Shown: positions 8,000-60,115 of the stretch, in pieces
Numbering within the stretch: the first letter of the stretch is position 1
Layout: each line of letters starts with the position of its first letter
NCBI RefSeq assembly: GCF_025377685.1
Contig: NZ_JACEHK010000015.1
Coordinates: 434,001-498,000, forward strand
Origin: Anaerobacillus sp. CMMVII
GTDB lineage: Bacteria; Bacillota; Bacilli; Bacillales; Anaerobacillaceae
Direction of reading: 5' to 3'
DNA: 64,000 nt
Notes under the pieces: model-generated
What the model saw: only the letters and a program-made list of their open reading frames with translations
What the model was told of the DNA's origin: nothing
Databases searched by the model: none
Position numbers and translations under genes: made by a program

Positions 8000-8034
8000 T
8001 TCCTATATCTACAACAGATAGGTTCATTTTGGAA

Positions 8035-8214
8035 CGTTCTTTTCTTAAAGATTGTTGCTATTAGCTTTTAGGTCGTAACCAAGCGAAAGCTTGGTTCTTC
8101 ACGCTTTGCGTGAAGCTTTTGAGAATAAATAAGCCATTGGTACAAATAAATTTGTCCCCAAAAGCATATTTATTCTCAAAAGACTTAAAAGCAACCAAGT
8201 TTATGAAAACAGCC
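8035..8214. mobile_element. MITE-like element A, copy 1 (8-bp target duplication TTTTGGAA)
   Basis: This is a 180-bp non-coding element flanked by perfect direct repeats TTTTGGAA (8027-8034 and 8215-8222). The left end reads CGTTCTTTTCTTAAAGATTG. The right end, reverse complemented, reads GGCTGTTTTCATAAACTTGG. Both match the terminal inverted repeats of the copies at 27.7, 31.6 and 59.9 kb. The interior holds stacked hairpins (AACCAAGC/GCTTGGTT and TTCACGC/GCGTGAA). No transposase is encoded. Confidence 0.8.
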
Positions 8215-8296
8215 TTTTGGAAAAAGACAAGAATTGTCATTCCAGGATTGGGTACCCTCATAGTATGAATGAAATAATTGCAAATTGGAGGTACTC

Positions 8297-9037
8297 ATGA
8301 AGAAGAAAGTTGTATTAGTTGGTGGGGCCGGAAGAATCGGGACCATTTTAAGTAAAGGCCTGCATGAAAGGTACGAAATAATAGTACTAGACAAAAATAT
8401 CCGTGAAGACGAAGGCCATATTGAAACGGATGCTACAAATTTTGATGAATTAGTAGACGATATTCCGGAAGATGCAGATGTTATTATCAATTTATTAGCT
8501 ACTCACACGAATGAAAGCATTAGTGATGTCTCAAAATTGAATGATATGACGGATGTCTTTTTTAAAGCCTCTTATTATATATTTTTAGCTGCTGTAACCT
8601 TAAAGGTGCCAAGAGTCATCTTCGCAAGTAGTAATCATGTGACAGATTATTATGAAGTTGACGGAAACTCAACGTTGACAAGAGAAATTAATATCAAGGA
8701 TTATCCATTGTCTAGAAGTTTGTATGGGGTTTTAAAGCTAGCTTCTGAAAATATAGGTCATATTTTTGCAGATGACCATGGGTTATCAATCATCAATCTG
8801 CGTATTGGATCAGTACCAGATGATGAAAAGAGGTCAGTAAGAGAAAAACCAAGATTAAGGAAGACTTTATTATCTAGCGTTGACGTGATCAACTTGTTCA
8901 GTGCAGCTATTGAAACAAATACTCATTATGGAATTTATTATGGTGTTTCAGATAATCCAGGCAAGCCATGGGATATGAAAAATGCGAAAGAGGAGTTAGG
9001 GTTTCAATCAATTGTAAATACAAGTGATTTGAATTAA
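8297..9037 (+). CDS. NAD-dependent epimerase/dehydratase family, uronate dehydrogenase-like
   Basis: This is a 246-aa short-chain extended dehydrogenase. It has the NAD-binding GGAGRIG (9-15), SSNH at 111-114, catalytic Tyr143 and Lys147 (YGVLK) and LRIGS at 168-172. The combination ASSNHVT, SLYG..K, LRIGS and YYGVSDNPGKPWD resembles bacterial uronate dehydrogenase, which oxidises galacturonate or glucuronate to the aldarolactone. The ATG at 8297 follows GGAGGT. In this pectin island it would offer an oxidative alternative to UxaC/UxaB. A role as another sugar dehydrogenase or epimerase is possible. Assignment is by motif recall, not alignment. Confidence 0.7.
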   Translation: MKKKVVLVGGAGRIGTILSKGLHERYEIIVLDKNIREDEGHIETDATNFDELVDDIPEDADVIINLLATHTNESISDVSKLNDMTDVFFKASYYIFLAAVTLKVPRVIFASSNHVTDYYEVDGNSTLTREINIKDYPLSRSLYGVLKLASENIGHIFADDHGLSIINLRIGSVPDDEKRSVREKPRLRKTLLSSVDVINLFSAAIETNTHYGIYYGVSDNPGKPWDMKNAKEELGFQSIVNTSDLN

Positions 9038-9047
9038 CTGCAAGACT

Positions 9048-9086
9048 TTTGGGTCTTAGCCAAGTATTCGCTTAGCTACGGCCCAA
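9048..9086. repeat. Intergenic palindrome related to MITE A interior
   Basis: TTTGGGTCTTAGCCAAGT pairs imperfectly with CTTAGCTACGGCCCAAA around ATTCG. The central words match the CCAAG..CTTGG hairpin found inside the MITE copies at 8.0, 26.9 and 31.6 kb. It lies between the dehydrogenase and pectinesterase genes. Confidence 0.55.
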
Positions 9087-9127
9087 ATAGCATAAAAAAT
9101 ACAGAGGTAATGAGAGGAGAAACAGAA

Positions 9128-10024
9128 ATGTTACAACTAACTGTAGCCTTAGACGGATCAGGGGATTTTCAAAAAGTGCAAGATGCGATAAATCAGGTTC
9201 GAGTCCACCCTTTAGAGCCTGTGTTAATTTATATAAAAAATGGAAGATATCACGAGCGATTGATAATTCCGGATAATAAACCAAACATTACTCTTCGAGG
9301 TGAGAGTAAGGATCATACAATTATTTCGGATGGCACCTATGCGGAAATGGTGGATGCAAACATCCAAAAGCTCGGTACATTTAAAACGGCAGTTGTTCAC
9401 ATTCAAGCAGATGAAATAAACGTAGAAAATCTAACAATTGAAAACACTGCTGGCTATGGCCCAGAGATAGGTCAAGCATTAGCGTTATACGTTTCAGGAG
9501 ATCGTTGTACATATAAGAATATAAGATTACTAGCAAATCAAGATACCCTTTATACAGCGAAAGGTCGACACTACTTTACTCATTGTTACATCGAAGGTCA
9601 TGTAGATTTCATCTTTGGTTCAGCTACCGCTATATTTGATCAATGTGAAATTCATAGTTTACGGAAAGGATATATCACAGCGGCATCAACCCCAAAAGAA
9701 GTCAATTTTGGATTTGTGTTCTTAGAGTGTAAATTGACCGGTTCAGCAGACGAAGATTCTGTTTATCTCGGTCGACCGTGGCGACCAGATGCATCTACGA
9801 TTTTTATTCGGACATGGATGGGACCACATATTAAGAAGGTGGGCTGGGATAACTGGCGGGATGAGGCAAATGAAAAAACAGCAAGGTATGCTGAATATCA
9901 AAGCTTTGGACCTGGAGCAAGCGAACATACTCGTGTCCATTGGTCAGCAATTCTTACCGAAGAAATATCTCTTGAACATGTATTCAAAGGAGAAAATAAC
10001 TGGTTGCCTAGAGAAACGATCTAA
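9128..10024 (+). CDS. Pectinesterase (carbohydrate esterase family 8), cytoplasmic
   Basis: This enzyme removes methyl esters from homogalacturonan oligomers. The 298-aa beta-helix shows Gln116 in GQALAL, Gln138-Asp139 in NQDT, the nucleophile Asp160 in GHVDFIFG, and Arg216/Trp218 in LGRPWR. These are the standard CE8 catalytic and binding positions. The protein begins directly with MLQLTVALDGSGDF, with no signal peptide, although most bacterial pectinesterases are exported. It therefore probably acts on imported methylated oligomers. The ATG at 9128 was preferred over that at 9110 because GAGAGGAGA lies between them at proper spacing. Confidence 0.93.
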   Translation: MLQLTVALDGSGDFQKVQDAINQVRVHPLEPVLIYIKNGRYHERLIIPDNKPNITLRGESKDHTIISDGTYAEMVDANIQKLGTFKTAVVHIQADEINVENLTIENTAGYGPEIGQALALYVSGDRCTYKNIRLLANQDTLYTAKGRHYFTHCYIEGHVDFIFGSATAIFDQCEIHSLRKGYITAASTPKEVNFGFVFLECKLTGSADEDSVYLGRPWRPDASTIFIRTWMGPHIKKVGWDNWRDEANEKTARYAEYQSFGPGASEHTRVHWSAILTEEISLEHVFKGENNWLPRETI

Positions 10025-10171
10025 TATAAGAAAGTTATACCTTTGGTGTAACGGTTCAGTTCAAAAGTGCAAAACGAGAAGTCGGAAAATAATTCACACT
10101 GATAATAGAAGACCCCACTTCAAATTATCGATATTAAGTGGCGGGTAGTTACGATAGAAATTATTAATATA

Positions 10172-10212
10172 ATATTGACCGCAGCCAAGCAATGCTTGGC
10201 TATGGTCAATAT
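10172..10212. repeat. Intergenic palindrome related to MITE A interior
   Basis: ATATTGACCGCAGCCAAGCA pairs with TGCTTGGCTATGGTCAATAT, with two mismatches. The core CCAAGCAATGCTTGG is like the hairpins inside the MITE A copies. It is located between the pectinesterase gene and its terminator. Confidence 0.55.
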
Positions 10213-10230
10213 ACAGAAACACATGTAATC

Positions 10231-10275
10231 TACAATGAGGATGACTCTCATTTGAGTCATCCTCATTGTATTTTT
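10231..10275 (+). terminator. Rho-independent terminator (pectinesterase)
   Basis: A perfect 17-bp stem (TACAATGAGGATGACTC with GAGTCATCCTCATTGTA) with a 6-base loop is followed by TTTTT on the plus strand. It also separates the convergent regulator gene, which ends only 10 bp away. Confidence 0.85.
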
Positions 10276-10284
10276 ACCAAGCAA

Positions 10285-12600
10285 TTAATCAAACTTTTTT
10301 GTAGAATGTAGTTCGCGGTATTTACCAGGTGTTAAGCCTTCTTTTTTCTTAAAGGATCTAATAAAGTTTTGCGAGTTATTATAATGAAACTTTTCTGCAA
10401 TATCTTTAATTGATAAATCAGATTCAACAAGCCACTTTTTAGCCATGTTTAAGCGATACATAGAGATATATTCACTAAATGAGATGTTTGTTTCTTTCCT
10501 AAAAATACTACTTAGGTAGTTTGGATTGTAGTGAAGTCTTTCTGCTATTGCTTCTAGTGATATATCTGAGTCATATTCTTGTTGAATAATATGAATGATT
10601 TGATCAGAGATATTTTTATATTGGGAATTAATACGTTCTTCCAACGATGTGACTAGTGGTATAACAATTGTTTCTTTAAACCAAATTTCAATTTCATTGA
10701 CAGTTTTCAATTCAAATAGTTGGTCGAATAAGGATTTCTTATCATCAAGATTTTCTAACTCGACACCTAGAGTTTGCATAAGCAAAATCAAATCATTTAG
10801 TAAACGCAGAAGAGAGATTTGATATTGATTTGTATTTAAATCTTTCGAGAAGATATTCTCAATTAAAAGATTTAAGGTTTCCTCAACTTTTTCACGTTCA
10901 CCTAATTTTATTACATCAAATAATTCATTTTTAATATTTTCAGGGAAGTAGGTTTTTAATGAGTTTCCATGATCAACATCTTTATAATGAATAATTGCTT
11001 CACTTCCAAATTTCAATCGATATTTAAGAACTTCTACCCCTTGTTGATATGCTTCTCTTGATTGTGATAGTTTAGTAAACGGTTGACTCACACCAATACT
11101 TACTGGTAACTCGAGTTCCTCTTTCACTTTATTTTGAAGGTTTTGAGCCATTTCATGTACAAAAGCCTCGAACTCTTTTGTTGTTTCATGATCACTGACA
11201 ATAATCGTAATTTGTACGTCTCTGCGAAGAACAGGTGTTAGTCGACGCTCTTTAGGAATGATATCCCCGGCTATTGTATTAATCGTAAATAATAGCAAGT
11301 CTGATTGTTCAGGAATGTATTTGGTTCTCTCTAAAGAATCAATTTGAAGTGTTAGGACACATAAGTGGTTCCATGTCTCAGGATATTTATAAGATAAATA
11401 TTTCATTTTTAACTCTTCGTCACTTAAATGGCCATCAAGCAGTCTTGTAATAAATAAATGCTTTAGTTGCTCGACTTGACGTTGAAGTTTGCTTTCTAGT
11501 TCATTGTTTTGATCTAACATATGATGAATTCGATCGTTGATAAATTCAAACTCATCATTACTTTGCTTCGCAGTAGTAGAATTCCCTTTAAAGGTAGTAA
11601 CAATGGAATTGTAAAGATCATTAATTGGACGGTAAATATGTCTAGAACCAATCCAAGATAGTAAAAGCGATAAGAATAAAACAATTAAACAGATAGTTAA
11701 AGTAAATAACCCAATTGGCGTTGTTTCTTTTTTTAGCGTATTATTTGAAATTACTGAGAGATACAACCAGCCGTTATAATCTGATTTGCGATAGGTTACG
11801 GTATAATTCGATTGATCAATAACTGTAGCATATTGTCCCACAGGTTTAATTTGTTTTTCCTTTATTTCAGAAATAAACCGTTCATTAGAAAAGCTTTCAC
11901 CAATTAATGAGAGGTTATTATGAGCAATAATGCGATAATCATTGTCTAGTATCATTAAGGTTTCTGTTTCAGAGTCTCCGGATAACACTTTAGCTAGATT
12001 ACAGGTAGGGATACTAACAATTGCAAGCCCGTTTTTTGTACTAAAATTTAAAGGCAGCTTTTTAACTAAGCTAACGTTATAGGTACAACTATCGCGATAA
12101 GGACTCTCTTGCATGACAAGGTTGTTATTATCTAAGATCCACATCGAACTAAGTGGTAAATCGAAGTACTGAGCAAATTCTTGGTTAATTTCAGTTGGAT
12201 TTGTTCGATAGAGGCCACGATTATTAATGACCCAATTACCTTCAAGACTTAAAATTAAGACATCCTCTACACCAGTGTCAAAAGTTTGAAGATGATTAAG
12301 CTCTTGTTTAATTTGACGATAAAGTTGGAATTGGATAGCATCCATTGGTTCCTTAATGGTTTCTTTAAAAAATGAAGAGTTAATAAAGTAAGTTAAAGAG
12401 TGATCAACAGTTTTTAGAACTTGTTCAACATTGGTGTTAATCTGATAAATACTTTGTGTTTTTTCTTCCATCACTTTTTCATATAAAGCGTTTGATGCCT
12501 TTATATAAGAAAAAGACCCTACTAAAATAATAGGTAATGCACTAATAATTGATATAAGAATTATGAGTCTCAGATAAAATTTAGTGGTTCCCTTTTTCAT
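10285..12600 (-). CDS. yesS: Membrane-bound AraC-family regulator, YesS-like
   Basis: This is a 771-aa one-component regulator. A transmembrane segment at about residues 9-30 and another near 292-315 enclose a roughly 260-residue extracytoplasmic sensor of Cache type. A cytoplasmic linker follows. The C-terminal ~100 residues form two AraC helix-turn-helix motifs (LEAIAERLHYNPNYLSSIFR, then IKDIAEKFHYNNSQNFIRSF). YesS in B. subtilis has the same layout and activates rhamnogalacturonan genes. The ATG at 12600 has GGAGGG five bases upstream. The gene is divergent from the GH105 gene and convergent with the pectinesterase gene. It probably senses a pectic oligosaccharide outside the membrane. 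The ligand is inferred from context. Confidence 0.85.
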   Translation of the reverse strand: MKKGTTKFYLRLIILISIISALPIILVGSFSYIKASNALYEKVMEEKTQSIYQINTNVEQVLKTVDHSLTYFINSSFFKETIKEPMDAIQFQLYRQIKQELNHLQTFDTGVEDVLILSLEGNWVINNRGLYRTNPTEINQEFAQYFDLPLSSMWILDNNNLVMQESPYRDSCTYNVSLVKKLPLNFSTKNGLAIVSIPTCNLAKVLSGDSETETLMILDNDYRIIAHNNLSLIGESFSNERFISEIKEKQIKPVGQYATVIDQSNYTVTYRKSDYNGWLYLSVISNNTLKKETTPIGLFTLTICLIVLFLSLLLSWIGSRHIYRPINDLYNSIVTTFKGNSTTAKQSNDEFEFINDRIHHMLDQNNELESKLQRQVEQLKHLFITRLLDGHLSDEELKMKYLSYKYPETWNHLCVLTLQIDSLERTKYIPEQSDLLLFTINTIAGDIIPKERRLTPVLRRDVQITIIVSDHETTKEFEAFVHEMAQNLQNKVKEELELPVSIGVSQPFTKLSQSREAYQQGVEVLKYRLKFGSEAIIHYKDVDHGNSLKTYFPENIKNELFDVIKLGEREKVEETLNLLIENIFSKDLNTNQYQISLLRLLNDLILLMQTLGVELENLDDKKSLFDQLFELKTVNEIEIWFKETIVIPLVTSLEERINSQYKNISDQIIHIIQQEYDSDISLEAIAERLHYNPNYLSSIFRKETNISFSEYISMYRLNMAKKWLVESDLSIKDIAEKFHYNNSQNFIRSFKKKEGLTPGKYRELHSTKKFD

Positions 12601-12691
12601 GAGTACCCTCCTTGTCCATGCCATAACAAACGTTTAGAACACAATTATACATGAAAGTATTGTTTGGCAACACCCTAAATTCGACAATTTT

Positions 12692-12705
12692 TGTAACCGT
12701 TTTCT
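12692..12705. promoter_or_regulatory. Candidate catabolite-response element
   Basis: TGTAACCGTTTTCT resembles the CcpA cre consensus (TGWAARCGYTWWCA) with two departures. It lies in the divergent yesS/GH105 intergenic region, together with a second site 100 bp away. Confidence 0.4.
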
Positions 12706-12797
12706 ACTATCCAAATTAAAAAAACTCCGTAAATCATAACAATCATTTGCTTACATTACGTTCATTTCATTAGTTTTTAGGGGAATTATTAGTGATC

Positions 12798-12811
12798 TGG
12801 TAGCGTTTTCA
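12798..12811. promoter_or_regulatory. Candidate catabolite-response element
   Basis: TGGTAGCGTTTTCA matches the CcpA cre consensus except at two positions. It lies about 165 bp before the GH105 start. Repression by preferred carbon sources would make sense for this operon, but a different LacI-type regulator could also use it. Confidence 0.45.
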
Positions 12812-12963
12812 CTTAACTGAATTGAGGATTGTAGACGTACCTTCTAACAGTAAGATAAATTTAACATGTACTTAGGGAACAGTAATTTTAATAATGATTT
12901 ACGTTGGAAGTTAATGGAGAAAAGAAACTAAAAATAAAGCACTGGTTATTGGAGGAGATTTTT

Positions 12964-14073
12964 TTGACTAATCAACAGAATACTACTACGCAACTTTCAC
13001 CATTAGAGTGGGCTGAGAAAGCATGTGTATCTTTAATGGAAAGGTATACACCTATGCAGTTACCGCCAGAAAATCGTTGGCATTATCACCAAGGTGTTTA
13101 CTTATATGGAATGTATAGAGTATGGCAACAAACACAAAAGGAAGAATATTTCGCTTATTTCAAAAAATATGTTGATGATCTAGTCGATGAAGAAGGAAAC
13201 TTCTATTTCCGTCGTGATGAGTTAGATGCTATTCAACCTGGACTATTACTATTTCCAATTTATGAAGCAACGAAAGGGGAAAAGTATAAAGTTGCAGCTA
13301 CAAAACTTCGTGACCTATTAAAAACGTTAAATAAAACAACAGAAGGTGGATATTGGCACAAGGATAAATATCCATACCAAATGTGGTTAGATGGGTTATA
13401 TATGGCTGGTCCTTTCTCGGTTATTTACGGAAAAGTATTTAACGAGCCTGAATTGATAGAATCTGTTTTATACCAAGAGAAATTAATGAGAAATCATACA
13501 AAAGACGAAACTACTGGTCTGCTATACCATGCTTGGGATGAAAAAAAGGAACAACCATGGGCGAATCCAGAAACAGGCCGTGCACCAGAGGTTTGGAGCA
13601 GATCACTTGGATGGTACGGTATGGCAATTGTAGATATTTTAGAGGAGTTACCAGAAGCACATCCTGCAAGAGAAGAGTTAATCGGCGAATTGAAGCAGTA
13701 TGTTGACACGCTTGTAAAGTACCAAGACGAAGAAAGCGGATTATGGTATCAAATTGTGGACAAAGGACACTTAGAAGATAACTGGTTAGAATCTTCTGGA
13801 TCAAGTTTGTTCGTTTACACAATCGCTAAAGCAGTTAATGGAAACTATCTTGACTCTTCTTATTTAGAAGTAGCTAATAAAAGTTATCAAGGATTACTAG
13901 ATAAAATGATCTCATTTGATGAAGAAAATAGACTTCAGCTAGAAGGAATTTGTATCGGTACTTCTTGTGGAGTATATGATTACTATGTTGCTAGAGAAAC
14001 ATGTGTTAATGATTTACACGGTTTAGGTGCGTTCATGTTAGCGTGTGTTGAAATGAGTAAGTTAAACAAGTAG
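12964..14073 (+). CDS. yteR: Unsaturated rhamnogalacturonyl hydrolase (GH105), YteR/YesR-like
   Basis: This enzyme releases the unsaturated galacturonic acid from the non-reducing end of lyase-generated rhamnogalacturonan oligomers. The product tautomerises to the substrate of KduI. The protein is 369 aa with an alpha6/alpha6-barrel pattern. Asp88 (RRDELDAI) and Asp143 (QMWLDGLY) fall at the same numbers as functional aspartates described for this family. The start is the TTG at 12964, six bases after GGAGGAG. An earlier in-frame TTG at 12904 lacks a ribosome site. The following lipoprotein and oxidoreductase genes repeat the yteR-yteS-yteT order of B. subtilis. Confidence 0.92.
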   Translation: MTNQQNTTTQLSPLEWAEKACVSLMERYTPMQLPPENRWHYHQGVYLYGMYRVWQQTQKEEYFAYFKKYVDDLVDEEGNFYFRRDELDAIQPGLLLFPIYEATKGEKYKVAATKLRDLLKTLNKTTEGGYWHKDKYPYQMWLDGLYMAGPFSVIYGKVFNEPELIESVLYQEKLMRNHTKDETTGLLYHAWDEKKEQPWANPETGRAPEVWSRSLGWYGMAIVDILEELPEAHPAREELIGELKQYVDTLVKYQDEESGLWYQIVDKGHLEDNWLESSGSSLFVYTIAKAVNGNYLDSSYLEVANKSYQGLLDKMISFDEENRLQLEGICIGTSCGVYDYYVARETCVNDLHGLGAFMLACVEMSKLNK

Positions 14074-14082
14074 AGAAAAAGT

Positions 14083-14125
14083 CACCATAGGGCTTGTAAA
14101 TTTTAAAAGGTCTAGCCCTATGGTG
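14083..14125 (+). terminator. Hairpin after the GH105 gene
   Basis: A 12-bp stem (CACCATAGGGCT with AGCCCTATGGTG) with a 19-base loop lies 10 bp after the stop codon. There is no U-tract, so it may be a processing or stability element within the operon rather than a full terminator. Confidence 0.45.
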
Positions 14126-14174
14126 GTCAACTATTGCTACACGTTAACACTCAATACGAAATGAGGGATAGGGA

Positions 14175-14720
14175 ATGAAAATACAACTCGTGAGAATATC
14201 AATGTTCTTAATTTTGTTGTTGATGTTAGTTGGCTGTGGTGGAAACAAACAGGAAGATCACTTTCAAATTTATATCTTTTCTGAATTAAATGACGCTTTT
14301 GATGGTCGAGTTAGTAAGGTTTTAGAAAATGTGATTGAGGAAGTTATCCCGAAAGAAGAGTTTGGACTTTACTTATTTCCGAAAGTGGTTGAAAAAATTG
14401 TAATTGAAATCGTTACTAAAGGCGGAGATATCTTTATTCTGGAAGAGGATATTGTTATGGCTGCTCTAGATCCGATAGGAGTACACCCTCTCGATTTGCT
14501 AATTGAAAGTAACGATAAGATCCAAAGGGTTGAAGAATACATGTTTCATAATGACGAAACCGGAGCAATGTCGGTGTATGCAGTTCCGATCCCAAGTAAC
14601 TCATTACTTTTTAAAGATATAGCTAATCCATTACCAAATCAATATGTGGCATTAATTCCTCATTATAGTGATGATAAAGAGCTTGCAGTCAAATTACTTG
14701 CGCATCTCTTAGCAAACTGA
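14175..14720 (+). CDS. yteS: Lipoprotein, YteS-like
   Basis: This 181-aa predicted lipoprotein has a basic start, a hydrophobic stretch at residues 6-20 and a lipobox LVGC with Cys21. The mature part has no catalytic motif I recognise. Its position between a GH105 gene and a Gfo/Idh/MocA gene matches the B. subtilis yteS locus, which encodes a lipoprotein of similar size. It may be tethered outside the membrane and assist substrate binding. Function is unknown. Confidence 0.75.
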   Translation: MKIQLVRISMFLILLLMLVGCGGNKQEDHFQIYIFSELNDAFDGRVSKVLENVIEEVIPKEEFGLYLFPKVVEKIVIEIVTKGGDIFILEEDIVMAALDPIGVHPLDLLIESNDKIQRVEEYMFHNDETGAMSVYAVPIPSNSLLFKDIANPLPNQYVALIPHYSDDKELAVKLLAHLLAN

Positions 14721-14721
14721 G

Positions 14722-14800
14722 TGAATTTCATATACCTTACTCGAGCTATATCCAACTGCATATAGACCTTGATAGCAAAAATAAGGAATTATGAAATTCA
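14722..14800. repeat. Cruciform dispersed repeat, copy 2
   Basis: TGAATTTCATATACCTTA at the left pairs with TAAGGAATTATGAAATTCA at the right. CGAGCTATAT follows the left arm as in other copies. It is shorter than the copy at 53.5 kb, apparently by loss of one inner arm. It fills the gap between the lipoprotein and oxidoreductase genes. Confidence 0.75.
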
Positions 14801-14836
14801 TCAAACTAAATATCAGATGAATAGAGGGTTATGAAT

Positions 14837-16135
14837 ATGAAACGATTTGTGATTTGTGGTCTAAGCAATCGAGCAATCAAGATGTTCATCGGACCAATGT
14901 TGGAGAAATTTTCAAGTCAAAATGAAATAGTGGGACTTTTGGACATCGATCCACAAAGATTTCTTGCTGTTAAAGAAGAGTTTCCACAGTTGCAGTCTGT
15001 TCCTACCTATGCGCCGGATCAAGTTGAAATGATGGTGCAAGAAACAAGACCAAACTCAATGATTGTTGCTGGTAGAGATGATACCCATATTGCCTATATC
15101 TTACAAGGATTAGAGCATGATTTAGAGGTCATTACCGAAAAACCTATGGTGACAAATGCAAGGGATGCTCAAAGGGTAATTGATGCAGAAACAAACAGTA
15201 AAGGGAAAGTAGTCGTAACGTTTAATTACCGCTACGGAGCTCAACATCGAAAGATTAAGGAAATGATATTAGAAGGCAAGATTGGTAGAGTTACTTCTGT
15301 TGATTTAAATTGGTATATTGACACATACCATGGTGCTAGTTATTTTAAACGCTGGAATCGAGTAAGGGAACTTTCAGGTGGTCTATCAGTACACAAATCA
15401 ACACATCATTTTGATCTAGTTAATTGGTGGATTGATCAATTACCAGAAGAAGTATTTGCTTATGGTGCCCTCAATTATTATGGACAGGGAGCTGAATTAA
15501 ATCCTTCTAAACAAGACAGTCGTTTTTGTGGAACATGCACTGAAAAGATCGACTGCCAATACTATATGCGTTGGACAAACCGTAGCGAAGAAACAGCAGT
15601 AAGCGATGATCATATTAAGGCACCTTTAGATTTAGGGGCAAAATATACAGATTATCGTCCAGATGCTTGTATCTTTGATAAAGAAATTGAGATAGAGGAT
15701 ACGTATGTCGCAACTGTCAAGTACGACAAAGGTGCTTTACTAAGCTATTCGATCAACTTTTCTGTTCCTTATGAAGGCTATCGCCTAGCGATTAATGGGA
15801 CGAAGGGCCGTATTGAAACGACAGAATTTCACGAACCGAGTCGTATTCCATTCCCGTTTCCAGAGCAACAAACGGTTGATTACTTTCCGCTCTTTGGCTC
15901 AAAAGAAGTAATCCATGTTGTTCAGAACAAAGGTGGCCATGGTGGGGGCGATCCATTACTTCTTGAGGATTTATTCCTTGGAGTTGATCCACGACGGAAT
16001 TATGAGATTTTAGCAGGTGCTAAAGCAGGAGCGTATTCGATTGCTGTTGGTGAGGCTTTGTGGAAATCATCACAAGAAAATCGACAAATTAAAATTAGCG
16101 AGTTATTAGAGAGTGAAAAAACATCGGTTCTTTAG
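14837..16135 (+). CDS. yteT: Gfo/Idh/MocA-family oxidoreductase, YteT-like
   Basis: This 432-aa NAD(P)-dependent oxidoreductase has an N-terminal Rossmann domain (FVICGLSNRAI), EKP at 101-103 and a catalytic-loop motif KSTHHFD at 187-193, followed by the family's beta-sheet domain. An unusual cysteine set lies in the second domain: Cys231, Cys234 and Cys240, with Cys278 further on. These could bind a metal. The ATG at 14837 is used because AGAGGG lies eight bases before it, while the ATG at 14831 is too close. The family acts on sugars and sugar acids, but the substrate is unknown. The 3' end overlaps the region just upstream of the GDSL gene. Confidence 0.85.
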   Translation: MKRFVICGLSNRAIKMFIGPMLEKFSSQNEIVGLLDIDPQRFLAVKEEFPQLQSVPTYAPDQVEMMVQETRPNSMIVAGRDDTHIAYILQGLEHDLEVITEKPMVTNARDAQRVIDAETNSKGKVVVTFNYRYGAQHRKIKEMILEGKIGRVTSVDLNWYIDTYHGASYFKRWNRVRELSGGLSVHKSTHHFDLVNWWIDQLPEEVFAYGALNYYGQGAELNPSKQDSRFCGTCTEKIDCQYYMRWTNRSEETAVSDDHIKAPLDLGAKYTDYRPDACIFDKEIEIEDTYVATVKYDKGALLSYSINFSVPYEGYRLAINGTKGRIETTEFHEPSRIPFPFPEQQTVDYFPLFGSKEVIHVVQNKGGHGGGDPLLLEDLFLGVDPRRNYEILAGAKAGAYSIAVGEALWKSSQENRQIKISELLESEKTSVL

Positions 16136-18284: not shown

Positions 18285-18412
18285 GGCTCTTTTCGTATTG
18301 ATTAGAAAAGATTTCCCTAGACCTTGATATATCTTGTTATTGCTAGCTGTTTAAAAAACGACAAACTATCATTTTAAAAAAACAACTTACTTTATCTTAG
18401 GAGGCAATTATC

Positions 18413-21077: not shown

Positions 21078-21250
21078 GGTTGTTTTTAAACCTAAATTTA
21101 TTGAAAAATTCTTTAGATGGAGGCCCACCCAATAAATTTAGTAAGAAAAGAGCAATACTTACTAAATAAGTAGTGAAAATCTATTATGTATGTGTAAAAA
21201 TCCAGGTTTTGGAATTTCCGCGAAAGCAATAAACTTGCGAAAACAGTCTT
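21078..21250. mobile_element. MITE-like element B, left-truncated remnant
   Basis: The interior (CTTTAGATG, CCCAATAAATTTAGTAAG, then AGCAATACTTACTAAATAAG) and the right end (AAACTTGCGAAAACAGTCTT) match the intact copies at 27.75 and 59.85 kb. The left GGCT end is missing: the element begins at GTTGTTTTTAAACC, directly against the kdgK stop codon. No coding potential. Confidence 0.7.
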
Positions 21251-26868: not shown

Positions 26869-26891
26869 TCAATAACAAAGAGTAAATAAGA

Positions 26892-27039
26892 TACTGTTCT
26901 CGTAATATTTGTTGCTTTTAGGTTGGGACAAATTTATTTGTCCCAATGGCTTATTTAAAAACTTCACGCAAGCGTGAAGAACCAAGTATTCGCTTGGTTA
27001 CGACCTAAAAGCTAATAGCTGCAATTTTAGAAAAGAGCG
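26892..27039. mobile_element. MITE-like element A, copy 2
   Basis: This 148-bp element has worn ends. The right end, reverse complemented, reads CGCTCTTTTCTAAAATTGC. The left reads GTTCTCGTAATATTTGTTGC. AATAAGA occurs on both sides (26885-26891 and 27041-27047), suggesting an old target duplication. Inside are three perfect hairpins: GGGACAAATTTATTTGTCCC, CTTCACGCAAGCGTGAAG and ACCAAGTATTCGCTTGGT. Confidence 0.7.
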
Positions 27040-27191
27040 TAATAAGAAGAATGTCTCTAGTTGAGTCATTCTTTTTGCTTATAAAAATGCCCTAGGTGAT
27101 GTCTAAGTAAGCTCCATGTAGATAGAGTATTGCTAATAGCTGGAGCTGACCAAAGCGATTGCTTGACTCTTCAGGTCTGTATCAATATAGG

Positions 27192-27714: not shown

Positions 27715-27743
27715 TTCTTGGATCATTTCCAAGAATTTTTTTT
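27715..27743 (+). terminator. Rho-independent terminator of the marR gene
   Basis: TTCTTGG pairs with CCAAGAA across a 7-base loop. Eight T residues follow. The site lies 15 bp after the stop codon. Confidence 0.92.
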
Positions 27744-27749
27744 GTAAAA

Positions 27750-27940
27750 GGCTGATTTCGTAAAGTTTGTTGCTTTCGTAAAAATCCCAGAAGCCGGATT
27801 TTTACACATTTATATTAAGATATCATTATTTATTTAGTAAGCATTGCTCATTTCTTACGAATTCTACTGGAGATTTCTTCATCTAAGGTGGTTTTTTCAA
27901 TTATTTTAGGTTAAAAAGCCACAATGTTTACGAAAAGAGC
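27750..27940. mobile_element. MITE-like element B, intact copy (duplication TTTGTAAAA)
   Basis: This 191-bp element begins GGCTGATTTCGTAAAGTTTG and ends CAATGTTTACGAAAAGAGC, so the ends are inverted repeats of each other. Direct repeats TTTGTAAAA flank it (27741-27749 and 27941-27949). The interior is the reverse complement of the copies at 21.1 and 59.9 kb. No transposase is present. The ends and the 8-9 bp AT-rich duplication resemble ISL3-family transposition. Confidence 0.85.
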
Positions 27941-28075
27941 TTTGTAAAAAAAGATATCTGATTAAGGGTATTAAGTTAGAAAGTGACCGGGAATCTGAAA
28001 AATTTTTTATAAATGTGATACATAACTAGAAAATGATGGTAAAATTAACATGATATTCAGAATTTTGAGTTTTAT

Positions 28076-31462: not shown

Positions 31463-31574
31463 AAGCCCAAACCCCCAGTTTCCTGCTTAAAATACGATTT
31501 TATTAACGTAAGTTTACCAAATTGTAGAAAAAAATGGTAGCAATGCTGATTACTTTGAATGAGTTTTAATATTT

Positions 31575-31758
31575 GGCTGTTTTCGAAAATTTTGTTGCTT
31601 TTAGGTTGTATTTTGAGATTAAATAAGCTTTTTTAGGAAAAATTTACTTGCCCCAAAGGCTTATTAAATCTCAAAAGCTTTACGCCAAGCGTGAAGAACC
31701 AAGCATTCTCTTGATTACGACTTATAAGCTAATCGCAACAATCTTTTAGAAGAGATCG
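31575..31758. mobile_element. MITE-like element A, copy 3 (duplication TAATATTT)
   Basis: This 184-bp element is flanked by perfect TAATATTT repeats (31567-31574 and 31759-31766). The left end is GGCTGTTTTCGAAAATTTTG. The right end, reverse complemented, is CGATCTCTTCTAAAAGATTG. The interior shares the GCGTGAAGAACCAAGC block with the copies at 8.0 and 26.9 kb, in the orientation of the 26.9-kb copy. Confidence 0.85.
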
Positions 31759-31899
31759 TAATATTTAAAGTCATATGTTACGAAAATAGTTTATTTAAGA
31801 CTTTGTGACTGTTCTCACTGAAACAAATTAACAAACTGGTGTATTGTAAGGGTGTAAAATGATGAAACAATAAATCTACCTAAGAAAAGAGGCATACAC

Positions 31900-49325: not shown

Positions 49326-49328
49326 TAC

Positions 49329-52327: not shown

Positions 52328-52335
52328 AGAAAAGT

Positions 52336-52593: not shown

Positions 52594-52635
52594 GTAAAGA
52601 TTCTCCTTTTTACCATTCATTTAGGGGGTATTAAA

Positions 52636-53238: not shown

Positions 53239-53261
53239 TAAAACATTTACCTTTAAATTTA

Positions 53262-53291
53262 TTGACAATTCTTACTATTAGCCGGTATAAT
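53262..53291 (+). promoter_or_regulatory. SigA promoter of the SAM riboswitch-metY unit
   Basis: TTGACA (53262-53267) and TATAAT (53286-53291) are separated by 18 bases. Transcription would begin around 53298, about 20 bases before the aptamer. Confidence 0.85.
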
Positions 53292-53319
53292 CACCACAAT
53301 GGCAAAATTAAATGAAAAC

Positions 53320-53476
53320 TCTTATTGAGAGAGGTGGAGGGACTGGCCCTATGAAACCCGGCAACCAGTGTGAAAACACAAGGTGCTAAATCCAACAGAG
53401 CTTTGTAGTTCTGAAAAATGAGAGAAAGAAGCAGATATTAACTCTTCTCTCAACCTGAGGAAGAGTTTTTTATTTT
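53320..53476 (+). ncRNA. SAM-I (S-box) riboswitch with terminator
   Basis: The conserved S-box core is clear: GAGAGGTGGAGGGACTGGCC, CTATGAAACCCGGCAACC, then AAGGTGCTAAATCC. P1 is formed by CTCTTATT with AATGAGAG (53426-53433 region). The expression platform at 53440-53476 is a terminator (AACTCTTC with GGAAGAGTT, then T-rich). High SAM should stop transcription before metY. Confidence 0.96.
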
Positions 53477-53491
53477 GGGAATTTATTTTAA

Positions 53492-54914
<1,423 letters not shown>

Positions 54915-54935
54915 TAATTACGAATTACGAATTAC

Positions 54936-54999
54936 GAGTGTTGAAACATTGTGAAAATTTCACAATGTTTCAACACTCAACACTCAACACTCAACATTC
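54936..54999. repeat. Perfect 43-bp palindrome with CAACACTC tandem words
   Basis: GAGTGTTGAAACATTGTGAAA (54936-54956) pairs perfectly with 54958-54978 around one base. The right arm continues into tandem CAACACTC words up to 54999. GAATTACGAATTACG repeats lie before it. It is related in word content to the palindromes at 46.9 and 61.7 kb. It could act as a terminator after metY. Confidence 0.85.
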
Positions 55000-55073
55000 T
55001 ACATTCAAACATTGACGGACGTGTCATATTTTGTCTAAACTATAGAGAGAAACGCAAGAAGGAGGGACAAACC

Positions 55074-55640
55074 TTGTCACGGATATCATGGGATCAATAT
55101 TTTATGGCTCAAAGTCATTTGCTTGCACTAAGAAGTACTTGTACACGATTAATGGTAGGAGCAACGATTGTAAGAGATAAGCGAATTATTGCTGGCGGTT
55201 ATAATGGCTCAATTTCTGGGGGAGACCATTGTACAGATGATAATTGCTATGTAGAGAATAATCATTGTATTAGAACGATTCACGCGGAGATAAATGCATT
55301 GTTACAATGTGCTAAATTCGGAGTCCCAACTGCAGGTGCTGAAATTTATGTCACTCATTTTCCCTGTTTAAATTGTGCTAAAGCAATTATACAAAGCGGC
55401 ATAAAAGCTGTTTTCTATGCGAAAGATTACAAAAATCACCCATATGCTATTGAGTTGTTTAAAAGTGCAGGTGTGCATGTGGAAAATGTAGAGTTAGAGG
55501 AAATGATTTTAGATATGAAAACCACTGAAAAATTAGCTTTTACAGCGGAATTACTGACGAAACTTGAAGAGGCAGGTATCAGTGAGGAAGAGCTAAAGAG
55601 TTTAAAAGATCAGGCTAATAAGTTATTTTTACCTGGTTGA
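55074..55640 (+). CDS. comEB: dCMP deaminase-family protein ComEB
   Basis: This 188-aa cytidine/deoxycytidylate deaminase family protein has the zinc motif His70-Ala-Glu72 and Pro97-Cys98-x2-Cys101. In B. subtilis it is the second comE gene and helps place competence proteins at the pole. The start is TTG, seven bases after AAGGAGGG. A longer upstream in-frame extension runs through the palindrome and is not coding-like. Confidence 0.93.
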   Translation: MSRISWDQYFMAQSHLLALRSTCTRLMVGATIVRDKRIIAGGYNGSISGGDHCTDDNCYVENNHCIRTIHAEINALLQCAKFGVPTAGAEIYVTHFPCLNCAKAIIQSGIKAVFYAKDYKNHPYAIELFKSAGVHVENVELEEMILDMKTTEKLAFTAELLTKLEEAGISEEELKSLKDQANKLFLPG

Positions 55641-55676
55641 GAAAATATAATCTCTTGATTTGGAGGTTTGACAAAG

Positions 55677-57986
55677 TTGTCTGGTAAGATTTACATTTTA
55701 ACTCTGGCCACGATTTCTAGTATTATTTTTCGGATTCAGGGCTTACATAGCGTCTCCATTTGCTTATTGTTAGCCCTAATCTACCTTTTGTATAAAAACA
55801 AATACAAGTATCCACTTATTTTTGTTTCGATCACACTTTTTGTTTATTTTTATGTGAACCCCTATTATTTTACCCCACCACCACCAGTGCCTTCTCAAAA
55901 TGTGATCATAGGACAAATAATCTCAATACCTAAATATAATGGAACTAAGATTTCATTTGAACTAAAAACAATAGACAAACAAAGGGTAGAAGTTAATTAT
56001 TTTGCAAAAACTATTGATGAATTAAATAACTTAAAAACACTTAAGTACGGACTGAATTGTTCATTACAAGGGAATTTTAAAGATCCGCCAATGCCAAAGA
56101 ACTTTTATAGTTTTGATTACAAGAGCTATTTAGCGTCTAGGAATATTTTTTACCAATTTAGCCCAGTCAGTTTATCACTAAAAAATTGTACAGATAATGG
56201 GATATCTCCATTTAGTATCATTCAAAGATCTAGACAAACTGGGGTACAAATGATAAAAGACCACTTTCCTGATGAAAGTAAAGGGATTGTCACTGCATTA
56301 ATTTTTGGTGATAGAGGGTTAATGGATAGTGATACTTTAAAATCATATCAGACATTAGGAATTATCCATTTACTAGCTGTTTCTGGACTTCATGTCGGAC
56401 TTGTGACTTCTAGTTTATATTTCATTTTAATCCGCCTTGGTATGACAAAAGAAAGAACAGTAGACTTTCTACTAGTTATTCTTCCGATTTATGTTATTTT
56501 AGCTGGTGGAGCCCCTTCAGTTATAAGAGCTTCTGCAATGTTAGTAGTAATCCTTCTCTCAAATAAAGCCCGCCTAAAAATAAATCCTTTAGATGGAATT
56601 AGTGTCGTTTGTATTGTTTTGCTGTTAATAAATCCTAATTACATAGTTCATATAGGCTTTCAGTTGTCATTCCTCGTTTCTTACCAACTCATTATCTCGG
56701 CAAGTCTAATCCTAACGCGCTATTCAAACTGGCTAATACAACTATCCGTTGTTACAATTCAAGCTCAATTAATTTCTTTCCCATTAATCATTTACCACTT
56801 TTATGAAGTATCGTTATGGAGTATCCCACTGAACCTCATTTATATCCCGTTTATTACTTTTTTTGCCTTACCTTTTTCGTTTATCGTATTTATTAGCTAC
56901 ATAATTATTCCACCAGTTGGTGAATTCTTCTTTGTATTGTATGACTTTGTGATAGAAATTGCCCATAATGGTTTACAAGTAGGAATGAAGTTACCGCTTT
57001 CCACGTTACTTTTTGGGAAACCACCAATCTGGTTAGTAGTTTGCTATTATGTAGCCATTGGTTATCTTTTTTACATTTGGGAAAAATCAAATTCTATACT
57101 TACAATTTTAAAAGCTAGTATTGTATTTTTTATTGTCGCTTTGGTCCATTGGAATCTTCCCTATTTAACTAGTGAAGGTGAAGTTACCATGATTGACGTT
57201 GGACAAGGGGATAGTATCTACATTGAACTTCCAAAAAGAAAGGCCGTGTACTTAATTGATACGGGAGGTATCGTAGATTTTAATCAAGAGTTAGTACCGA
57301 AAGAACGTGTATTTAACATTGGGAATGATGTACTGCTTCCGTTTTTACAGGCCAAGGGTGTAAGAAAGATAAATAAATTAATTTTAACCCATGGACATTA
57401 TGATCATATCGGAGGGGCAGAAGCTATAGTAGGTAAGGTTGCTGTTGAAACACTTTTATATGGTGCAGTTCCATTAGAAGGGGAAATTGTAAAGGATTTG
57501 TTGAACAGCTTTGTTACCCTTGGTACTGAGGTCGTATATGTAAAACAAGGGGATTATTGGAGTAATGGAAATAGTGAATTTCTAATTATGGCGCCATATG
57601 GCTATGAACAAAAACTAAATGATCAATCGATTGTCATATATGCAACGCTAGGAGGCTTAAAGTGGCTATTTACAGGGGATTTGGAAAGGGACGGAGAGAA
57701 GCAATTAATAAAAATATATCCTAATTTCAGTGTTGATGTTTTAAAAGTAGGGCATCACGGGAGTAATACCTCAACGACGAGTGAATTGTTAGACAGGACT
57801 AAGCCAAGTGTTGCATTGATATCAGTGGGGAAAAATAATCTGTATGGTCACCCCCATCCAGAAACACTTGCCAGACTCGAAAATCAGAGAATGATGATTT
57901 TTAGAACCGATCAACATGGGGCAATCCGCTATGTATTTAAAGGAAACGGCGGAGGGAGTTTTGAAACTGTCATTGAAGTACCTTAA
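55677..57986 (+). CDS. comEC: DNA internalisation protein ComEC/Rec2
   Basis: This is the membrane channel for single-stranded DNA uptake: 769 aa, with an N-terminal DUF4131-like part, a central multi-helix Competence domain (GIIHLLAVSGLHVGLV), and a C-terminal metallo-beta-lactamase-like domain (DVGQGDSIYIELP, LTHGHYDHIGG, LFTGDLE, KVGHHGSNTST). The TTG at 55677 gives normal spacing to GGAGG. The TTG at 55668 is too close. Confidence 0.95.
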   Translation: MSGKIYILTLATISSIIFRIQGLHSVSICLLLALIYLLYKNKYKYPLIFVSITLFVYFYVNPYYFTPPPPVPSQNVIIGQIISIPKYNGTKISFELKTIDKQRVEVNYFAKTIDELNNLKTLKYGLNCSLQGNFKDPPMPKNFYSFDYKSYLASRNIFYQFSPVSLSLKNCTDNGISPFSIIQRSRQTGVQMIKDHFPDESKGIVTALIFGDRGLMDSDTLKSYQTLGIIHLLAVSGLHVGLVTSSLYFILIRLGMTKERTVDFLLVILPIYVILAGGAPSVIRASAMLVVILLSNKARLKINPLDGISVVCIVLLLINPNYIVHIGFQLSFLVSYQLIISASLILTRYSNWLIQLSVVTIQAQLISFPLIIYHFYEVSLWSIPLNLIYIPFITFFALPFSFIVFISYIIIPPVGEFFFVLYDFVIEIAHNGLQVGMKLPLSTLLFGKPPIWLVVCYYVAIGYLFYIWEKSNSILTILKASIVFFIVALVHWNLPYLTSEGEVTMIDVGQGDSIYIELPKRKAVYLIDTGGIVDFNQELVPKERVFNIGNDVLLPFLQAKGVRKINKLILTHGHYDHIGGAEAIVGKVAVETLLYGAVPLEGEIVKDLLNSFVTLGTEVVYVKQGDYWSNGNSEFLIMAPYGYEQKLNDQSIVIYATLGGLKWLFTGDLERDGEKQLIKIYPNFSVDVLKVGHHGSNTSTTSELLDRTKPSVALISVGKNNLYGHPHPETLARLENQRMMIFRTDQHGAIRYVFKGNGGGSFETVIEVP

Positions 57987-57992
57987 TAAAGA

Positions 57993-58045
57993 GAAGAGGC
58001 TGACTTTGAAGGTCGTAAGGTTACGATCCTTTAGTCAGCCTCTTC
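57993..58045. terminator. Bidirectional hairpin comEC/yqzM
   Basis: GAAGAGGCTGACT pairs with AGTCAGCCTCTTC over a long inner imperfect stem. It stands between convergent genes. There are no long U-tracts, but the stem is strong. Confidence 0.75.
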
Positions 58046-58057
58046 ACCCTGTAAAAA

Positions 58058-58189
58058 TTAGACAAATAAGTCAATAACTACTGCAACAGCAAATACTGTG
58101 GCAAAAAATCCGAATGATACAACGAAACCTACTGCAGAATCTACTGCATCATTACGGTTGCTTTGGACTTCCTTTTCAAATTGGTTCAT
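58058..58189 (-). CDS. yqzM: YqzM family small membrane protein
   Basis: A 43-aa protein, MNQFEKEVQSNRNDAVDSAV and on to VIDLFV, matches the small YqzM protein found between comEC and holA in Bacillus. One transmembrane segment fills residues 19-42. AGGAGGGATGTCC precedes the ATG. Function is unknown. It is encoded antisense to its neighbours. Confidence 0.92.
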   Translation of the reverse strand: MNQFEKEVQSNRNDAVDSAVGFVVSFGFFATVFAVAVVIDLFV

Positions 58190-58312
58190 TGGACATCCCT
58201 CCTAATACAGTTTTTAGTATAAGCGAAAAATGATAAAAAATCTACATTTGTAACATTTTCTATATGTTTATGTGGGTAACTACCTAAAAAGTTTTGGACA
58301 GTCTTTTTAAAA

Positions 58313-58351
58313 GGCTGTTTTCGTAAATTTTGTTACTTTTAGAAAGAAGCG
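58313..58351. mobile_element. 39-bp minimal MITE (two inverted ends back to back)
   Basis: GGCTGTTTTCGTAAATTTTG is followed after a few bases by TTTTAGAAAGAAGCG. The right part is the inverse of a MITE end. TTTTAAAA flanks both sides (58305-58312 and 58352-58359). The element would be a MITE that lost its whole interior. Confidence 0.7.
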
Positions 58352-58370
58352 TTTTAAAATAATATGTTGT

Positions 58371-58440
58371 GAGTAATTTCAATCAGGCTATAACAATCTA
58401 TAGGTAGTTGCGATCGGTTTAACGCAACCTCATATCGAAC
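58371..58440. repeat. Cruciform dispersed repeat, partial copy
   Basis: GAGTAATTTCAATCAGGCTATAACAATCTA leads to a small hairpin GGTAGTTGCG/CGCAACC. It shares GCTATA..AATCTATA with the copy at 0.6 kb. The right arm is lost. Confidence 0.5.
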
Positions 58441-58550
58441 ATTTTATTGTAATTATTGCATTTTAGGAATTAGCAATACTGTGAAATGTTGTCACCTATA
58501 GAATGAAACCGCATAGGATATGATATCTAATAAACGAGAAAAAACATCAT

Positions 58551-58645
58551 TGATTATCGTCATCAGGAGGTATCCTAGGCACCTCTAGCTGACGTTTATC
58601 ATAAATGGAGGGATTAACAATTCGGTTAATTCCTCTTTTGTTTTG
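58551..58645 (+). ncRNA. Structured RNA candidate with intrinsic terminator upstream of holA
   Basis: Hairpin 1 pairs TGATTATCGTCA with TGACGTTTATCA and contains an inner GAGGT/ACCTC stem (58551-58601). Hairpin 2 pairs GAGGGATTAAC with GTTAATTCCTC (58608-58635) and ends in TTTTGTTTTG, a good terminator. There is no plus-strand gene for 550 bp upstream, so a leader or small RNA is suggested. I do not recognise a known riboswitch or T-box. Confidence 0.45.
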
Positions 58646-58671
58646 TTAAGAGAAAATTTTAACTAGCTAAA

Positions 58672-58721
58672 AGTCCGTACGAGTAAGTTCAGGGACTAAG
58701 ATGTTCACATTTTACTTGTAC
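58672..58721 (+). promoter_or_regulatory. Competing hairpins just before holA
   Basis: GTACGAGTAA (58677) can pair with TTACTTGTAC (58712). AGTCC (58672) can pair with GGACT (58693) in a mutually exclusive fold. The region ends 67 bp before the holA start codon. Confidence 0.35.
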
Positions 58722-58788
58722 TAACTTAATTTCTATGTATAAAATTGTAATAACTAACATTTACATTAAAAGAAAGGGTATCAGAAAA

Positions 58789-59811
58789 ATGAGCTTTTTA
58801 CAAGTGCAAAAAAACATCAAAAAAGGCCAGTTGTCCCCTGTGTATTTGCTTTATGGTACAGAGACCTTTTTAATTGAGGAAACGATTCAGAAGCTCCTTA
58901 CTAAAGTTCTAACAGAAGATCAATATGATTTCAACCTGTCTACATATGAGTTAAAGGAAACGCCAATTTCTGTTGCTATTGAGGAAGCCTTAACAATACC
59001 TTTTATGGGAACACATCGAGTCGTAATCGTTAAGGATCCACATTTTTTAACTGGAAAGGATCAATCAAAGGTTGAGCATGATTTAAAGGCTTTTGAGAAT
59101 TATTTGGTAAATCCGATTCCCGAAACAATTTTTATTATTGTTGCTCCATATGAAAAACTTGATGAACGAAAAAAAATCGTTAAACTGTTAAAAAAAGAAG
59201 CAGAAGTCCTTGAAGCTGTTCCATTTTCTGAACAGGAGATGGAGAAGTGGCTTGATAGTCGTGTGAAAAAATATCATGTTGAAATAACCAAACCCGGTAA
59301 AGAGAAACTCATTCAACTACTTGGGAATAGCTTAATTATGATTGCCGGGGAAATTGAAAAACTTGCTCTATATGCTGGAGAAGGTGGAGTTATTGATGAA
59401 TTAACTGTTCAACAATTAGTTTCGAAAACAACGGAGCAGGATGTTTTTTCCTTAGTAGATCATGTCGTCCATCGGAGAAAGCAAGCAGCTCTTCAAGTTT
59501 TTTATGATTTAATAAAACAGAAGGAAGAACCAATAAAGATACTATCTTTACTGGCACGTCAGTTTCGAATTTTATATCAAGTCAAGGAACTCTCAAGTCG
59601 AGGTTATTCTCAGCAAAACATTGCAGGTACTTTAAAGCTGCATCCTTATGTCGTTAAATTAGCAAACCAACAAGCGAATTTGTTTGATGAAAAAAATTTA
59701 TTGCGATTTATTGATGAACTAGCTGAAACTGACTACAAAATCAAAACAGGTAAAATGGATAAACAACTTGCGTTAGAACTGTTTATCATAAGGGTATTAG
59801 GTGGGGAATAA
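58789..59811 (+). CDS. holA: DNA polymerase III delta subunit
   Basis: This 340-aa clamp-loader delta subunit opens the sliding clamp. The N-terminal pattern VYLLYGTETFLIEE and the central AE..A..IPF region are typical. The ATG at 58789 follows AAAGGG. An in-frame ATG at 58735 lacks a ribosome site. Neighbours yqzM and rpsT are the same as in B. subtilis. Confidence 0.93.
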   Translation: MSFLQVQKNIKKGQLSPVYLLYGTETFLIEETIQKLLTKVLTEDQYDFNLSTYELKETPISVAIEEALTIPFMGTHRVVIVKDPHFLTGKDQSKVEHDLKAFENYLVNPIPETIFIIVAPYEKLDERKKIVKLLKKEAEVLEAVPFSEQEMEKWLDSRVKKYHVEITKPGKEKLIQLLGNSLIMIAGEIEKLALYAGEGGVIDELTVQQLVSKTTEQDVFSLVDHVVHRRKQAALQVFYDLIKQKEEPIKILSLLARQFRILYQVKELSSRGYSQQNIAGTLKLHPYVVKLANQQANLFDEKNLLRFIDELAETDYKIKTGKMDKQLALELFIIRVLGGE

Positions 59812-59852
59812 TTCCGTATTTCTAAAAACTACAAAAGAATATTTTTACTAAA

Positions 59853-60047
59853 GGCTCTTTTCTAAAACATTGCTCCTGCGGTTACTCGTCGCACAAAAAA
59901 ACATGTTGCTTTTTAACCTAAAAAAATTGGAAAGATTCCTTAGATGAAGATATCACCCAATAAATTGAGTAAGAAAAGAGCACTACTTACTAAATAAGTA
60001 GTGAAATCTTAGTATTTACTTAAGCAACAAACTTTGCGAAAATAGCC
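59853..60047. mobile_element. MITE-like element B, copy with internal module insertion (duplication TTACTAAA)
   Basis: It starts GGCTCTTTTCTAAAACAT and ends AAACTTTGCGAAAATAGCC. TTACTAAA flanks it on both sides (59845-59852 and 60048-60055). The interior matches the copies at 21.1 and 27.75 kb. A foreign 23-base module sits at 59871-59893, between two AAAACAT words. Confidence 0.88.
59871..59893. repeat. Mobile 23-bp module inside a MITE
   Basis: TGCTCCTGCGGTTACTCGTC plus GCA is identical to 33850-33872 and differs by one base from 63894-63916. AAAACAT lies directly before it (59864-59870) and again at 59898-59904, like a small target duplication. Confidence 0.75.
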
Positions 60048-60052
60048 TTACT

Positions 60053-60115
60053 AAAAAAGGGCTGACTGTTGTCAGGTTCCTCTAATGAGGAGCTTGACAA
60101 CAGTAGCCCTTTTTT
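60053..60115. terminator. Bidirectional terminator holA/rpsT
   Basis: AAAAAAGGGCTGACTGTTGT and its partner ACAACAGTAGCCCTTTTTT form a long stem with one bulge. It serves convergent holA and rpsT. Confidence 0.92.

Follow-up and report, generated by a model that had tools for sequence, protein, structure and literature searches.

The 64,000-nucleotide stretch of DNA analysed here (the window) comes from Anaerobacillus sp. CMMVII (NCBI RefSeq assembly GCF_025377685.1, contig NZ_JACEHK010000015.1, positions 434,001 to 498,000 of the forward strand) and contains repeats that are miniature inverted-repeat transposable elements (MITEs): they are short, non-coding and present in many copies, and they have inverted ends and a target duplication of fixed length. 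On the evidence of sequence comparison, we consider it probable (about 0.88) that the enzyme which mobilized these MITEs in trans was a transposase from a single IS1595-family clade; it would recognize ends of the GGCTSTTTTCGTAAA type. Two interior types, A and B, share these ends and are both real; among the copies in the genome DNA examined, 57 are best assigned to type A and 56 to type B.

The full MITE ends are 26 bp long and of the GGCTSTTTTCGTAAACWTTGTTGCTT type, and GGCTSTTTTCGTAAA is a shorter, 15-bp motif. In the full genome of 4.87 Mb, this motif occurs with at most one mismatch at 207 sites, as compared with two for the reversed control, and in the window it occurs with at most two mismatches at 10 sites, where 0.38 are expected and none of 100 shuffles reaches 10. 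Of 75 distinct end pairs in the genome DNA examined, 27 have an exact 8-bp repeat in their flanks and 43 have flanks that match at seven or eight of eight bases; controls in which the flanks of different elements were mispaired gave 0.4% and approximately 4%, respectively. The flank repeat ends sharply at 8 bp, being exact at 9 bp in one of the 75 pairs and at 10 bp or more in none. A and T make up 91% of the bases in the 27 exact duplications, 24 of which begin with T and 26 of which end with A (positions 1 and 8, respectively). A nested insertion is found at locus L049, where a type B element holds a second element; the duplication is TAGGTTAA on either side of the inner element and TTAAAGAC on either side of the outer one. 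When the inner element and one TAGGTTAA are removed, what remains of the outer element can be aligned with L043 over its whole length (89.8%, 196 columns), and the nest is in effect an empty site within the same genome that shows insertion into pre-existing sequence. End counts, flank repeats and the nested insertion support the initial annotation of this DNA, which described a family of MITEs with inverted ends and AT-rich duplications of 8 bp.

The assignment to IS1595 is drawn from autonomous elements in other genera. A 30-base end query against plasmids led to an element on a Niallia plasmid (L135:3001-4765) that has both MITE-type ends (two and four mismatches of 26) and an exact TTTAAAAA duplication, and whose ends enclose two genes, one DinB-like and the other annotated as an IS1595 family transposase. 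The IS1595 transposase domain PF12762 is matched in eight of 36 MITE-rich or congener genomes, and one chromosomal locus (L147:987-2995) is a complete IS1595 element that lies between exact copies of TAATATAA and whose ends match; another (L139) has both ends and no duplication, and further PF12762 loci have one end only or quite different ends. The best likeness is to L178, with which the type A left end is identical over 29 of 29 bases. When named genomes were searched with a profile made from four transposases of this kind, 77 loci were obtained, nearly all from Bacillota by title. Both MITE-type ends are present at 58 of these, at least one of which is doubtful (the pair at L207), and 43 of the 58 have an exact 8-bp duplication; one end was found at 14 loci, in three of which the second lies at a contig edge, and none at five. 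Two loci under the titles Pseudomonas sp. ISL-84 (L188) and Chryseobacterium sp. ISL-80 (L235) carry a Bacilli-type transposase, and these assemblies may be mislabelled or contaminated.

Elements with these ends and an IS1595-family transposase are 1.2-3.3 kb long and have AT-rich 8-bp duplications; the AT content of the duplications is 0.94 in 43 IS1595 elements and 0.91 in 27 MITEs, and in both sets position 1 favours T and position 8 favours A. A tree of 60 distinct transposases splits into 50 and 10 sequences at a 100/100 branch; its bootstrap had not settled completely, and it includes some long branches. On the side of the 50, both ends are present in 42 and one end in eight, and on the side of the 10, neither end is present in nine and one end in one. 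According to PMC8101967, IS1595 elements are defined by duplications of 8 bp, a single transposase gene and a DDE_Tnp_IS1595 domain, to which a zinc finger is added in all but the IS1016 group. Scores against the NCBIfam model NF033547 (IS1595) are 203-209 bits for the transposases, where the cut-off is 75; three partners match PF12762 at 54.9-60.8 bits, partners match the zinc domain NF050000 (IS1/IS1595) at 48.7-51.1 bits (cut-off 28), and PF12760 is matched in two of the three, at scores under its cut-off. The intact element with the same 25-bp ends for which the initial annotation called does exist, but in other genera and in the IS1595 family, rather than in this genus or in ISL3.

The ends are widespread in the order: the 26-bp end, with at most two mismatches, is found in 162 of 397 sampled genomes and 68 of 135 genera (0 for the reversed control in the rows listed). 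Within the genus, the 15-bp motif has 207 and 252 sites in two genomes and 2 to 22 in five. A further 39 end loci lie apart from the main set, 36 of them (L115 excepted) in other genomes or in congeners other than the window's; they include 17 pairs with seven or eight of eight flank bases matching, 12 of them exact, although the pairs were picked for their duplication and give no rate; the 17 pairs are 103 to 652 bp long and mostly have other interiors. Three long elements of 465-652 bp (L123:1501-2152, L127:1062-1526 and L128:1501-2081) have the same ends and exact duplications, and no sizeable open reading frame (ORF) was seen in those at L123 and L127. A search of plasmids with the whole type A element gave no match, and a phage search with the 30-base end query gave seven records (best E 0.05), whose hits fall within small annotated genes or at their margins. 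A transposase match of at least 400 bits, full-length in each case, is present in three of 37 genomes with at least 20 ends (G068, G199 and G339), as compared with 16 of the 360 other genomes (p 0.40); genomes with more than five candidates were scored for five, so that single misses are possible, and the window's own genome was fully scored.

Several points weigh against movement by an IS1595 enzyme. No IS1595 transposase was found in the window's genome, either by PF12762 or by profile A1, and profile A1 found none in the seven genomes of the genus; across the order, MITE load does not track the presence of a close transposase. The 77 loci were retrieved with a profile built from elements that have these ends, and the rule by which their ends were paired favoured pairs with a duplication. 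Fewer than seven of eight flank bases agree in 32 of the 75 end pairs of the genome, a rate of duplication that is lowered because the pairs include some in which an end was wrongly matched to an inner end-like site. At 31.6 kb in the window, two congeners are without the element and have spacers of 217 and 234 bp, as compared with 228 bp in the window, but the divergence of these orthologous spacers prevents an empty site from being fixed to the base, and the spacing is suggestive only; in a third congener, G004, the spacer has another sequence and a length of 448 bp. Finally, it is from matching ends that we infer actual movement by the enzyme.

The missing partner lowers the case that the elements are currently mobile, not the case that they were built and moved in the manner of an IS1595 MITE, and, given that duplications and a nested insertion are present, we read its absence as loss, not as evidence against mobility. 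That the genus should have no element with matching ends, which the initial annotation had taken as counting against its proposal, is literally so for autonomous elements (the transposase was found in none of seven genomes). Under the proposed mechanism, an IS1595-clade transposase would recognize the approximately 26-bp inverted ends of gene-less elements and act on them in trans, and insertion into an AT-rich target with an 8-bp staggered cut would generate the 8-bp duplications. The mobilizing transposase would later have been lost from this genome and the six sampled congeners, or would never have been long resident in them, and the type A hairpins would be by-products of a palindromic build and not selected RNA.

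The initial annotation had proposed that an ISL3-family transposase moved the elements, and we regard this as the least probable of the explanations considered, and a very improbable one. The likeness is genuine, as ISL3 elements of relatives begin with GGCTCT or GGTTCT (that is, GG(C/T)TCT) and also have 8-bp AT-rich duplications, and of 61 relatives searched, 27 have ISL3, three of the six congeners among them. Duplications of this kind do not discriminate, because they are common to ISL3 and IS1595, and the difference lies in the remainder of the end and in the transposase family. From 30 loci in relatives, ISL3 ends were defined with an exact 8-bp duplication in five elements; these read like GGCTCTACGTCAAATGTTGGGG and have mainly the first six bases (GGCTCT) in common with the MITE ends, from which they diverge after base 6. 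The best 26-mer matches at the 30 loci have 6 to 11 mismatches, with one exception, a 3-mismatch end in L071 that comes from a genome with 284 MITE ends and points away from the ISL3 gene. Two ISL3 copies in G004 share only a 17-base block, and their ends were not defined. The ISL3 transposase (PF01610) has no match in the window's genome and none in G002, the most MITE-rich congener, and ISL3 is not commoner in MITE-rich genomes (two of nine, as compared with 25 of 52; p 0.28). On these grounds ISL3 was rejected as the mover; the observation that no mobilizing transposase is encoded in the window itself stands.

Hardly less improbable is the suggestion that the repeats are retained because they serve some function, such as that of a structured RNA or a transcription terminator, and that their spread is secondary. 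The type A consensus folds into a stem and three hairpin arms (-94 kcal/mol), and 90 of the 97 copies with enough flank interrupt no ORF of at least 100 amino acids (aa), the other seven doing so; the same intergenic placement is expected from purifying selection on insertions. No Rfam family matches the elements, type B lacks the type A fold despite the common ends, and although double-sided pair changes in type A (6) exceed the shuffle mean (2.1), they do not exceed slid controls (7 to 11), so selection on the fold is not shown by covariation. A different, unrecognized transposase resident in the genus, with the likeness to IS1595 ends reflecting older shared origin or convergence, is the least improbable of these three explanations and is still very unlikely. 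It would account for the failure to find an IS1595 transposase in the genus even though end sites number 207 and 252 in two of its genomes, and the transposase searches of the genome covered ISL3 (PF01610) and IS1595 (PF12762 and profile A1). It sits poorly with a likeness to IS1595 that spans up to 29 of 29 bases and extends to the length and make-up of the duplication.

The two interior types differ in uniformity and in length. The median pairwise identity of near-full copies is 0.914 for type A and 0.827 for type B; type A is near 182 bp and type B ranges from about 150 to 225 bp. Type A size classes of about 183, 134, 97 and 39 bp differ by whole hairpin arms, and each has examples with exact duplications. 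Shorter forms without whole arms include L284, L288, L294, L298 and L031 (92-97 bp) and L056, L280, L288 and L318 (133-134 bp), some of them with exact duplications. At the extreme are six ends-only copies of 38-39 bp, each at a different site in the genome (58313-58351 of the window, L282, L300, L320, L337 and L338), which keep only about 16 bases of the right end; none was found in the six congeners. The duplication is exact over 8 bp in four (the window copy, L300 and, by eye, L337 and L338) and imperfect in L320 (seven of eight) and L282 (six of eight). It is unlikely that these copies moved as such, with their ends meeting and nothing between; if mobile they would rank with the smallest DNA elements known to transpose. 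More probably each is a scar, in which the palindrome of a resident type A element was lost by slippage between two CTTTTAG repeats; such a loss gives the same product and retains the old duplication. A similar 39-bp palindrome, without duplication, occurs in G035 (L341).

In the window, all four elements named in the initial annotation are present with inverted ends and exact 8-bp duplications, as re-checked in the sequence, and profiles made from the genome's copies add two degraded copies; one ends-only copy is also present. A type A MITE of 180 bp lies on the minus strand at 8035..8214 (nhmmer A profile, 1e-55), between exact copies of TTTTGGAA at 8027..8034 and 8215..8222; its left end at 8035 departs from the end motif and reads CGTTCTTTTCTTAAA. 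A degraded type B MITE on the plus strand at 21078..21248 (nhmmer B profile, 2.4e-26) has a damaged left end and no duplication was seen, and a degraded type A MITE of 148 bp on the plus strand at 26892..27039 (nhmmer A profile, 1.1e-32) is flanked by an imperfect duplication, AAATAAGA at 26884..26891 and TAATAAGA at 27040..27047, which agree at seven of eight bases. A type B MITE of 192 bp, supported by its ends, duplication and nhmmer profile, lies on the minus strand at 27750..27941, between exact copies of TTGTAAAA at 27742..27749 and 27942..27949. Here the initial annotation read a 9-bp repeat, TTTGTAAAA, of which 8 bp are real; the ninth base is not part of the duplication and appears to be so because the right terminal base of the element has changed (AGCT for GGCT). 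A type A MITE of 184 bp occupies 31575..31758 on the plus strand (nhmmer A profile, 6.3e-46), with exact copies of TAATATTT at 31567..31574 and 31759..31766 and a right end at 31758 that departs from the motif (CGATCTCTTCTAAAA). The 39-bp ends-only derivative of type A is on the plus strand at 58313..58351, its ends joined at the short repeat CTTTTAG, with TTTTAAAA at 58305..58312 and 58352..58359; the five other copies in the genome are near-identical. A type B MITE of 195 bp, again recognized by ends, duplication and nhmmer profile, lies on the plus strand at 59853..60047, between exact copies of TTACTAAA at 59845..59852 and 60048..60055. The six full or degraded copies sit between ORFs of at least 90 aa, except that the copy at 8035 overlaps a 101-aa ORF on the minus strand. 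End-like sites found by the window motif search at 18285, 28079 and 28663 have no convincing partner end. The window also contains an ordinary S-adenosylmethionine (SAM) riboswitch at 53319-53424 (93 bits).

The IS1595 elements that have MITE-type ends commonly carry passengers. From the left end inward, the transposase gene starts after about 80 bp, and a second ORF, in most cases oppositely oriented, is often present in the remainder of the element. Of 40 passenger ORFs from 37 elements, 30 are below the Pfam cut-off and 10 are above it: DinB/MST-like proteins (three), GNAT acetyltransferases (two), a HAD hydrolase, a calcineurin-like phosphoesterase, SAP/DUF6434, DUF3221 and a helix-turn-helix protein. 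Alpha/beta-hydrolase passengers at L147:2143-2856 and L140:621-1337, both in G068, are 81% identical; their elements have different transposases and different ends, and the passenger is common to two transposase groups.

These results correct the transposase assignment and would tie repeat families in many genera of Bacilli, 68 of the 135 sampled, to one transposase clade. Hundreds of copies persist where the enzyme is not found, and bursts of MITEs may therefore come from short-lived, horizontally acquired, cargo-carrying IS1595 elements. Together, the ends and the clade offer a direct handle on which transposase moves which MITE and on the lifespan of orphan MITEs. In the literature library searched, no publication was found for six exact end strings, none that joins MITE, ISL3, 8-bp and Bacillus, and none that joins MITE, IS1595 and Bacillaceae. 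The bcr repeats of the Bacillus cereus group are intergenic and of MITE type, and have different ends.

Known IS1595 systems resemble the elements described here both in the partners and in the MITEs. IS1595 elements with passenger genes are described in PMC5704250 and referred to in PMC3129680; the former includes MTnSag1/tISSag10 and tISCpe8, which have lincosamide-resistance passengers. As presented there, they share with the partners 25-bp ends, 8-bp duplications and AT-rich targets, and the same build of 1.7-2.0 kb with an IS1595-family DDE transposase and one passenger gene. They differ in cargo, which in the partners consists of DinB/MST-like, HAD, GNAT, phosphoesterase and alpha/beta hydrolase genes and small ORFs in place of lincosamide resistance. 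The partners also belong to another transposase group, a homologue of ISSag10 being about 40% identical to the L135 transposase. The closest counterpart of the MITEs is an IS1595-related MITE of Haloquadratum walsbyi (partner ISHwa6), which is reported in PMC3852290 as non-coding and 165 bp long, with 25-bp ends, 8-bp duplications and seven copies. It is like the present family in its non-coding nature, its similar ends, its 8-bp duplications and its IS1595 assignment; it differs in belonging to an archaeon and in having seven copies and a named partner, whereas here there are more than 200 end sites in an order-wide family for which no partner was found in the genome. Because IS1595-related MITEs have already been reported, the family is a large addition to a known kind, and as far as our literature searches show, its ends, its scale and its orphan state in Bacilli are new.

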